A DNA stretch of 64,000 bases, from NCBI RefSeq assembly GCF_030848395.1, contig NZ_JAVDBT010000001.1, positions 248,001 to 312,000 on the forward strand. The letters are read 5' to 3'. Position numbers and translations under genes: made by a program. The DNA is from Pseudogemmobacter lacusdianii (GTDB taxonomy: Bacteria > Pseudomonadota > Alphaproteobacteria > Rhodobacterales > Rhodobacteraceae). Shown here piece after piece: positions 34,095 through 36,944 of the stretch (positions are counted from its first letter, which is position 1; each line of letters starts with the position of its first letter). The notes beneath the pieces were generated by a model, which saw only the letters and a list, made by a program, of their open reading frames with translations, had not been told where the DNA came from and ran no database searches.

Positions 34095-36944
34095 ATGAAC
34101 GCTTGGGATGACACCGACCCGCTGAACGCCTCTGGCCCCGCCGCCGGAGCCCCCGTGCCTTTGTCGCAGCGCGCAATGGCCGCGCGACCTGCACCCTATC
34201 TGGACGACCTCAACCCCGCGCAACGTGCTGCGGTTGAGGCGATGGATGGCCCGGTGCTGATGCTCGCGGGGGCTGGCACCGGCAAGACCAAGGCTTTGAC
34301 GACACGGATCGTTCATATCCTGAACACCCAGCGCGCCCGCCCGAATGAGATCCTTGCGGTGACCTTCACCAACAAGGCCGCGCGCGAGATGAAAGAGCGG
34401 GTCTTCCGCTTGCTTGGCCCGGTGGCTGAGGGCATGCCGTGGATGGGCACCTTCCACTCGCTCTCGGTGAAAATCCTGCGTCGCCATGCCGAGTTGGTCG
34501 GGCTGAAACCCAGCTTCACCATCCTCGACACCGACGATCAGTTGCGCCTCTTGAAGCAGTTGATCCAAGCCCGCAACATCGACGACAAGCGCTGGCCGCC
34601 AAGGATGCTTGCGGGGCTCATCGACGCTTGGAAGAACCGCGCGCTGACGCCCGCCCGCGTGCCCGTCACCGATGCTTCGGCCTATAACAACCTCGGGACC
34701 GAGATTTACGCCGAGTATCAAGCCCGTCTGCGCAGCCTCAACGCCTGCGATTTCGGCGATCTTCTGCTGCATTGCGTGGAGATCTTCAAAAACCACCCGG
34801 ATGTTTTGGCGCAGTATCAGCGCTGGTTCCGCTATATCCTTGTCGACGAATATCAAGACACCAACGTTGCCCAATATCTCTGGTTGCGGCTTTTGGCGCA
34901 GGCGCATCAGAACATCTGCTGTGTGGGGGATGACGACCAGTCGATCTACGGCTGGCGCGGCGCCGAGGTCGGCAACATCCTGAAGTTTGAGAAGGATTTC
35001 CCCGGCGCCACGGTGATCCGGCTTGAGCAAAACTACCGCTCCACCCCGCATATCCTTGCCGCGGCTTCCGCCGTTATCGCAGGCAATGCCGGCCGCTTGG
35101 GCAAGACGCTTTGGACCGAGGCTGAGGACGGCGAAAAGGTCCGCCTCATCGGCCATTGGGACGGTGAGGAAGAGGCGCGCTGGATCGGCGAAGAGGTCGA
35201 GGCTCTTCGATCCGGAAGGCACGTTGCTGCAAAAAATCGACTAAACTTGCGGTCTATGTTGGCTCACAATAATTTGCTGCGAATTGCTTTAGGCGGACTT
35301 AAGTGGGCTACCCGTCGGGCCTTCTTTAAAGCCGTAATTGAAGAGAAAATCGCTTATAGCGATGAACGGGTAGAAAAGCTTGTCAAATGGTTGCTGACTA
35401 AGCAGGCTGAAGCTTCAGCGAAATACCAACAGGTGCTTGCTAGCCCGCTTGATCGTTTTTCCTTAGATGAAATCGCCATCCTCGTCCGCGCCTCGTATCA
35501 AATGCGCGCTTTTGAGGACCGCTTCCTCACCATCGGTCTGCCCTACCGCGTCATCGGCGGCCCGCGCTTTTACGAGCGCCAAGAGATCCGCGATGCGATG
35601 GCCTATTTCCGCCTCGCCGTCTCGCCCGAGGATGATCTTGCTTTTGAGCGCGTGGTGAATCTGCCCAAACGCGGCCTTGGCGATAAGGCGCAGCAAGAGA
35701 TCCAGCTTGAGGCCCGCGCCATCGGCATGAGCCTGCACGAAGGCGCACGCAGCCTTCTGGCCCGCAAGGGTCTGAGCGCTAAGGCAGCTTCACAGCTAAA
35801 GGTCTTTGTCGAGGGCATCGACCTTTGGCACAACTTGATCGTTAACAGGGATAATCCTCAGGAAATTGCGAAGTTTCAGGCGCGGATCGCGTCGCATTAT
35901 GAGCTTATGTCGCAGCTAAGCGCTGAACTTTCAGAGTTCGAGGTTCTCGAAGGAGGCGAGGTTGCCTTTGACCTGCTTATTGAAGACCCCAAGTCTGCTA
36001 ACTCGGCTGGTCAAAGCGAGCAAATCAAACAGCAACTAATCCGAATTCAAAGCCTCTTGGACGTCGATAAGAATTTCTTGGCGATTCTGGAGGGTGACCA
36101 CATTCGTCTCGCGGAGATGATTTTGGATGAGTCTGGCTACATGGACATGTGGCAGAAGGACAAAAACCCAGAAGCACCAGGGCGCGTCGAGAACTTGAAG
36201 GAACTCGTCAAAGGCTTGGAGCATCACGAAAACCTACAAGGTTTTCTGGATCACGTCAGTTTGATTATGGATAACGACGCGGAAGAGTCGGTTGAGAAGG
36301 TCTCGATCATGACGCTGCACGGCGCCAAGGGTTTGGAATTCCCGGTGGTTTTCCTGCCGGGATGGGAGGATGGCCTTTTCCCCAGCCAGCGCAGCATGGA
36401 CGAATCCGGGCAAAAGGGCATCGAGGAAGAGCGCCGCCTCGCCTATGTCGGCATCACGCGGGCCGAGGAGCTTTGCACGATCTCCTTCGCCTCGAACCGC
36501 CGGGTTTACGGCCAATGGCAAAGCCAACTCCCCAGCCGCTTTATTGATGAGCTGCCAAGCGCCCATGTCGATGTGATCACCCCGCCAAGCCTGATGGGCG
36601 GCGGCTATGGGGCGGCGGCGGGCTTTGGCGGCTTTGGCTCGCATCTTGAAGAGCGGGTGTCAAAAGCGGATGTCTATAACTCGCCCGGCTGGAAGCGCTT
36701 GCAAGAACGCCAAAGCTCGCGCCCGATCGCCCAGCCGCGCGAGGCGCGGAATATGACCATCGATGCCGCCGCGATCAGCGGCTACAGCATCGGTGATCGG
36801 GTGTTCCACACCAAATTCGGCTATGGTGAGGTCGTGGATATCGAGGGTGACAAGCTTGATGTGCGGTTCGATAAAGCCGGCGAGAAGAAGATCGTCGCCC
36901 GCTTCGTGATGCCCGCCGACCAAGCCGACGATATGCCGTTTTAA
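34095..36944 (+). CDS. uvrD: UvrD/PcrA-type DNA helicase II with two in-frame low-GC insertions
   Basis: 949 residues from the ATG at 34095, against about 720 in E. coli and roughly 800 in relatives. Walker A is GAGTGKT near 63, motif II DEYQDT near 250, motif IV NYRSTPHI near 315, motif VI VGITRAEE near 780, and a C-terminal Tudor-like tail (GDRVFHTKFGYGEVVDIEGD). Two segments are foreign: residues about 371-457, between EEVEALRSG and LDEIAILVR, and about 578-668, between VEGIDLWHN and LAEMILDESGY. Both are Lys/Glu/Asn-rich and encoded at about 45-50% GC versus nearly 70% around them. The frame stays open and all motor motifs are intact. Role: 3'-5' helicase in excision and mismatch repair. 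Confidence 0.93.
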   Translation: MNAWDDTDPLNASGPAAGAPVPLSQRAMAARPAPYLDDLNPAQRAAVEAMDGPVLMLAGAGTGKTKALTTRIVHILNTQRARPNEILAVTFTNKAAREMKERVFRLLGPVAEGMPWMGTFHSLSVKILRRHAELVGLKPSFTILDTDDQLRLLKQLIQARNIDDKRWPPRMLAGLIDAWKNRALTPARVPVTDASAYNNLGTEIYAEYQARLRSLNACDFGDLLLHCVEIFKNHPDVLAQYQRWFRYILVDEYQDTNVAQYLWLRLLAQAHQNICCVGDDDQSIYGWRGAEVGNILKFEKDFPGATVIRLEQNYRSTPHILAAASAVIAGNAGRLGKTLWTEAEDGEKVRLIGHWDGEEEARWIGEEVEALRSGRHVAAKNRLNLRSMLAHNNLLRIALGGLKWATRRAFFKAVIEEKIAYSDERVEKLVKWLLTKQAEASAKYQQVLASPLDRFSLDEIAILVRASYQMRAFEDRFLTIGLPYRVIGGPRFYERQEIRDAMAYFRLAVSPEDDLAFERVVNLPKRGLGDKAQQEIQLEARAIGMSLHEGARSLLARKGLSAKAASQLKVFVEGIDLWHNLIVNRDNPQEIAKFQARIASHYELMSQLSAELSEFEVLEGGEVAFDLLIEDPKSANSAGQSEQIKQQLIRIQSLLDVDKNFLAILEGDHIRLAEMILDESGYMDMWQKDKNPEAPGRVENLKELVKGLEHHENLQGFLDHVSLIMDNDAEESVEKVSIMTLHGAKGLEFPVVFLPGWEDGLFPSQRSMDESGQKGIEEERRLAYVGITRAEELCTISFASNRRVYGQWQSQLPSRFIDELPSAHVDVITPPSLMGGGYGAAAGFGGFGSHLEERVSKADVYNSPGWKRLQERQSSRPIAQPREARNMTIDAAAISGYSIGDRVFHTKFGYGEVVDIEGDKLDVRFDKAGEKKIVARFVMPADQADDMPF

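Follow-up and report, generated by a model that had tools for sequence, protein, structure and literature searches.

What lies at this locus? The window, by which we mean the whole 64,000-nucleotide stretch analysed here, carries on its forward strand a gene of the uvrD/pcrA type. PcrA/UvrD is a core repair helicase, the architecture of which is usually treated as constant. In this gene, two loops of the helicase are occupied by inserts of about 80 residues each. The features are as follows.

34095 to 36944, forward strand: uvrD/pcrA gene, 949 residues, an open frame with Pfam matches to UvrD-helicase, UvrD_C and PcrA_UvrD_tudor

35202 to 35471, forward strand: segment of low third-base GC (GC3 0.41) around insert 1, a probable import tract, from the BIC-optimal segmentation

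35211 to 35456, forward strand: insert 1, type A, residues ~373–454, in a loop of domain 2A; absent from all 25 aligned non-carrier UvrDs, with same-site homologues in genomes G319, G115 and G157

35838 to 36095, forward strand: insert 2, residues ~582–667, in a loop of domain 2B, with same-site homologues in other genomes

35856 to 35951, forward strand: first helix of insert 2, residues 588–619, predicted by AlphaFold2 (block pLDDT 94–97 up to residue 610, 75 for 611–620)

35988 to 36089, forward strand: second helix of insert 2, residues 632–665, predicted by AlphaFold2 (block pLDDT 71 for residues 631–640, 93–95 from 641 on)

36096 to 36299, forward strand: foreign-looking but conserved helicase sequence of the 2B/2A part (residues 668–735), marked out by DNA identity and by a GC3 of 0.64 against 0.77 expected

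The frame is uninterrupted from the ATG at 34095 to the stop at 36944. The N- and C-terminal helicase domains of UvrD are both present in the single chain (PF00580, E 9e-90; PF13361, E 4e-64), and the C-terminal Tudor domain is matched by PF21196 at 29.7 bits, above the cut-off of 23.9. The original prediction of an intact frame is thus borne out. At 768 bits the protein falls below the NCBI equivalog cut-off for PcrA (TIGR01073, 911 bits). This shortfall is not caused by the inserts, because the insert-free congener L010, at 777 bits, misses the cut-off too. The gene is the only one of the PcrA/UvrD type found in the window genome; the remaining matches to UvrD_C are short and partial, and lie in three frames of 1109, 982 and 511 residues. 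Its two immediate neighbours encode transporters, one of the MFS and one of the BenE type. Judged by its domains, the product is predicted to carry out ATP-driven 3'-5' unwinding, and the allele is functional-looking.

The two inserts lie in the two most GC-poor blocks of their size in the window. When the 64 kb are scanned in steps of 20 bases, stretches of 240 bases have a mean GC of 62.4% (s.d. 4.4). Block 1 (35221–35460) has 45.4% GC and is the lowest of all 240-base stretches; block 2 (35821–36300), at 49.0%, is the lowest of all 480-base stretches. The flanking sample 34921–34980 stands at 68.3%. These values reproduce exactly the 45%, 49% and 68% that had been counted by hand. It had also been proposed that codon usage would locate the break points. 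For block 1 it does so: the segmentation of third-base GC places breaks at 35202 and 35471, with a GC3 of 0.41 inside against 0.79 before and 0.70 after. For block 2 it does not, the BIC segmentation of third-base GC leaving this block unresolved. Further 240-base stretches of low GC (48–51%) occur in the window at 62161, 51321, 15881 and 7021.

Where in the helicase do the inserts fall? By alignment, insert 1 lies between residues 338 and 346 of Escherichia coli UvrD, and insert 2 between residues 467 and 482; we take the former positions to belong to domain 2A and the latter to domain 2B. Both inserts are in frame. In the 25 non-carriers that were aligned, the native loop is 8 or 9 residues long at site 1 and 6 to 35 at site 2, and the inserts substitute for these loops rather than merely adding to them. 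The limits of 371–457 and 578–668 first suggested for the inserts are correct to within a few residues. The suggestion that the low-GC tract reaches into conserved helicase sequence also stands, since some 200 bases of block 2 (36096–36299) are not insert.

How do the codons of the inserts compare with those of their hosts? For each insert the expected GC3 was taken as that of its amino acids under the codon use of the core of the same gene. Among 23 carriers, all 25 inserts fall below expectation, and 24 of them, the exception being L044, are lower in GC3 than every 70-codon stretch of their own core. The deficit is large: 0.48 observed against 0.90 expected in L050, 0.30 against 0.79 in L046, and, for the window, 0.43 (insert 1) and 0.56 (insert 2) against 0.78. 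Ordinary long loops at site 2 have 67–79% GC in 13 of 14 cases, the exception being L024 at 55%. Since the inserts are GC-poor in their codons in every host examined, they look newly arrived there, or else something keeps them AT-rich.

The inserts are rare, and their carriers are scattered over the family, which the named relatives indicate to be the Rhodobacteraceae. All 13 genomes of the genus have uvrD, and ten of them have neither insert, the absence in G010 and G012 being read from match coordinates only. The three carriers in the genus differ from one another: both inserts are present in the window genome, insert 1 of a second type (type B) in G001, and insert 2 in G007. In the family samples, insert 2 was matched in nine of 394 genomes and type A, the window's kind of insert 1, in four of 295, the window's own included in both counts; type B was likewise matched in four of 295, and its peptide has no match in the window genome. 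In the order sample insert 2 was matched in six of 292 genomes, while a class-wide sample of 289 genomes, searched for a donor, gave a match in the window's own genome only. A scan of a collection of 84,980 species gave eight named carriers of insert 2, including Defluviimonas denitrificans, Tabrizicola flagellatus, Rhodobacter sp. SW2, Maritimibacter fusiformis and Aliiroseovarius lamellibrachiae. In D. denitrificans DSM 18921 it is accompanied by an insert 1 of type B. Insert 2 also occurs on a 5,777-base contig labelled Sphingomonadales (L093), which may be misassigned and is included in the 23 carriers. One supposed carrier of type A (L038 in G090) was dropped as a chance match: at an E of 0.0074, the matching stretch is broken by a stop, and its surroundings showed no UvrD. 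All these counts are minimum figures, since rapid divergence of the inserts can hide carriers. In all carriers the modules occupy these two sites, singly or together. Types A and B are alike in their first part, and by eye they look like one superfamily once the sequences of G115 and G157 are added.

If the inserts are new to their hosts, by what route did they come? When the insert columns are left out, the tree of the UvrD core places the window protein inside its own genus (SH-aLRT 99). In residues 668–735, however, the mean DNA identity of the window gene to its four nearest congeners is 0.66 and 0.70, while those congeners are 0.91–0.94 identical to one another. Six other segments were compared, and five of them give a window-to-congener identity of 0.77–0.85. 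In the sixth, residues 521–582, the window is 0.65 identical to the congeners, which are 0.73–0.79 identical among themselves; hence the left edge of the second tract is not sharp. An AU test on residues 668–735 (204 bases) did not reject the grouping of the window with its genus (p-AU 0.79), so that the case for import of 36096–36299 rests on identity and composition, both of which point to it.

The clearest case is provided by the sister species G001 and G007. Most 15-codon windows of their uvrD genes are 0.91–1.00 identical. Identity drops to 0.56–0.67 at insert 1 of G001 and to 0.36–0.73 at insert 2 of G007; there are lesser dips (0.76–0.78) near residues 835–857, and the very start of the frame differs too. 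Their next relative, G004, is without either insert. The swap is seen here directly, the modules differing between the sister species as short replaced tracts in otherwise near-identical genes.

What might the inserts look like on the protein? An AlphaFold2 model built from 22 sequences (mean pLDDT 80, pTM 0.65) renders insert 2 as two long helices with block pLDDT of 93–97, falling to 71–75 near the turn and to 51 at the turn itself. These helices probably form a hairpin on 2B, to judge from the helices themselves rather than from coordinates. Insert 1 is also modelled as helical, but poorly, at pLDDT 45–76. The central 16 residues of insert 2, used as a stand-in for the tip, are markedly acidic: their charge summed over 16 sequences is −57 against a shuffle mean of −23, none of 2000 shuffles was as low, and the middles are negative in 15 of the 16. 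Heptad periodicity was no better than in shuffles in any of nine inserts (p 0.11 to 0.84), and for this reason we do not call the inserts coiled coils.

Do the inserts have relatives outside the helicase? None of 50,697 phage and 72,556 plasmid records was matched by tblastn when type A, type B and insert 2 were used as queries. When viral contigs were searched by pattern, 269, 28 and 51 stretches came up, none of which was confirmed as a relative of an insert. The idea that the inserts are themselves phage or plasmid proteins was therefore rejected, there being no relative in the phage and plasmid records or the viral contigs. In Pfam and PHROGs the inserts gave only matches at E 0.11 to 0.32. 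The whole helicase does match 112 phage records, all at less than 60% identity, which says nothing about the inserts; three Dinoroseobacter phage records are among them.

Could the inserts be something other than imported modules? An artefact of assembly or sequencing might be suspected in a draft genome of 49 contigs, but 22 further genomes or contigs have homologous inserts at these sites, some of the contigs being longer than 1 Mb, and such independent genomes refute the suspicion; we give it practically no weight. The precise, recurrent sites and the patchy distribution might equally betray an intervening element that inserts itself, such as an intein, an intron or a dispersed palindromic element. 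Elements of the last kind, like the RPE of Rickettsia, are dispersed over several genes of the same genome, whereas insert 1 and insert 2 each occur at one place only in the window genome. Furthermore, Rfam gave no match at E up to 1 between 34000 and 37100, and so no group I or II intron or known RNA element; no intein or endonuclease domain is among the Pfam matches of the protein or of the inserts; and the inserts replace a loop instead of only adding to it. We regard such an element as very improbable.

Might the inserts be an old feature of the family that most species have lost? Gain and loss are not separable by presence on a tree alone, and the carriers all come from one family except for the single contig labelled Sphingomonadales. 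Against this, on a core tree of 42 tips, picked to include carriers so that the counts are not rates, the 13 carriers of insert 2 require at least 11 changes (the six carriers of insert 1 require 6), and sister species bear different inserts. The original prediction had allowed that inserts with ordinary codons in all close relatives would speak for an old lineage feature; what we find is that ten of the 13 genomes of the genus lack both inserts and that all 25 inserts have codons unlike those of their own gene. Ancient presence followed by loss thus seems quite unlikely. Alternatively, the two loops might simply be tolerant, and AT-rich segments might arise or drift there with no function. 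Site 2 does vary in length among non-carriers too, and the inserts do diverge fast, three insert-2 stretches with their flanks being only 35–44% identical to one another. Yet inserts from distant hosts are homologous along most of their length, and random expansions would not produce homologues at one site time after time. They also appear to be constrained where this can be measured: dN/dS is 0.15 in a pair of type A sequences and 0.11 in the only pair of insert-2 sequences that allowed its computation (dS, at 3 and 4, is high, and is saturated in four of the five insert-2 pairs), and among five type B sequences 29 of 75 columns are invariant, eight of the 29 lying in the flank. Neutral expansion is, in our judgement, rather unlikely.

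We conclude that the inserts are probably accessory surface modules of a mosaic PcrA/UvrD allele, imported through local recombination into two loops that act as hot spots. The original prediction had offered a mosaic allele made by recombination or inserted accessory domains as alternatives; both seem right, the accessory modules being themselves imported. Low-GC alleles would form the pool from which the modules spread to other species, with homologous recombination in the conserved flanks carrying them over. With less certainty, we suggest that they may be kept because they alter what the surface of the helicase binds. Insert 2 would then be a helical arm on 2B, which could bring in a further partner or shut out an undesirable one, such as a mobile-element factor. 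The rarity and mobility of the inserts, and their lack of codon adaptation, fit selection for rare alleles, again for instance against a mobile-element factor, though no such factor was found and this is speculation. The same holds for the idea in the original prediction that phage inhibitors of such helicases could select for an altered 2B surface.

Is there precedent for such traffic? The target-recognition domains of HsdS are variable domains swapped by recombination, and there too variable segments are traded through conserved flanks. The gene described here differs in encoding a core repair motor, and in that the presence or absence of a segment varies besides its sequence. Within SF1A DNA helicases the window protein is itself a PcrA/UvrD, with the entire motor core, the 2B domain and the Tudor domain; it differs in its two inserts, which split the matches to solved structures at residues 338–346 and 467–482 of E. 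coli UvrD.

What role might be played by an arm on 2B? The literature suggests where it could act. UvrD1 and E. coli UvrD are described as dimerizing via 2B, with partner proteins acting by turning this domain (PMC13238157), and UvrD as contacting RNA polymerase through 1B and 2B (PMC8318588). Because 2B regulates activation and contacts partners, a stiff acidic arm there would most simply alter the choice of partner or the activation of the helicase. Mycobacterial UvrD1 likewise has a lineage-specific feature in 2B, one that governs its dimerization; this conserved cysteine motif is fixed in its lineage, whereas the window inserts are large, rare and exchanged (PMC13238157). A likeness may also be seen to HelD, which recycles RNA polymerase: it is a UvrD-like motor with long helical arms that enter the polymerase, and one of these arms is inserted in a motor domain (PMC7749165). 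Insert 2 has two long predicted helices and an acid-enriched middle, and its presumed hairpin might make a comparable arm. In HelD the Gre-like coiled coil is N-terminal and the protrusion lies in D1 (PMC7749165), whereas the predicted arm of the window protein is in 2B; no sequence relation was found between the HelD arms and the window inserts.

Does the locus reflect a wider practice? Tentatively, and as no more than one possible picture, the Rhodobacteraceae may share a pool of exchangeable PcrA/UvrD modules for two fixed loops, moved by local recombination. Insert 2 would be an acid-tipped 2B arm that adds or blocks a contact, be it with RNA polymerase, with a second UvrD or with a phage or plasmid factor, and the repair motor would be under rare-allele selection, like an immune gene. 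Apart from this picture, the wider result is that two loops of UvrD act as hot spots in which exchangeable modules are lodged across the family, and the use of 2A and 2B surfaces as plug-in sites for homologous, horizontally moving modules suggests an unrecognized pressure on the surface of the helicase. Events of this kind, whether mosaic alleles or inserted domains, are already known; what appears to be new is that they recur on a core repair helicase, as far as can be told from literature searches in which no title among those listed concerned such UvrD inserts. Sister species with reciprocal inserts offer natural pairs of alleles with which the part played by 2B in activation, in contact with RNA polymerase and in conflict with mobile elements could be tested.

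Two further observations concern the sites themselves. The uvrD of G012 (L015), a member of the same genus, is split into two frames of 436 and 539 residues, the break falling exactly at insert site 1; it may be a frameshift or an assembly error. The site-2 loop of G024 (L024), at 35 residues and with a GC below that of the other ordinary loops, is possibly a further kind of insert or a remnant of one.
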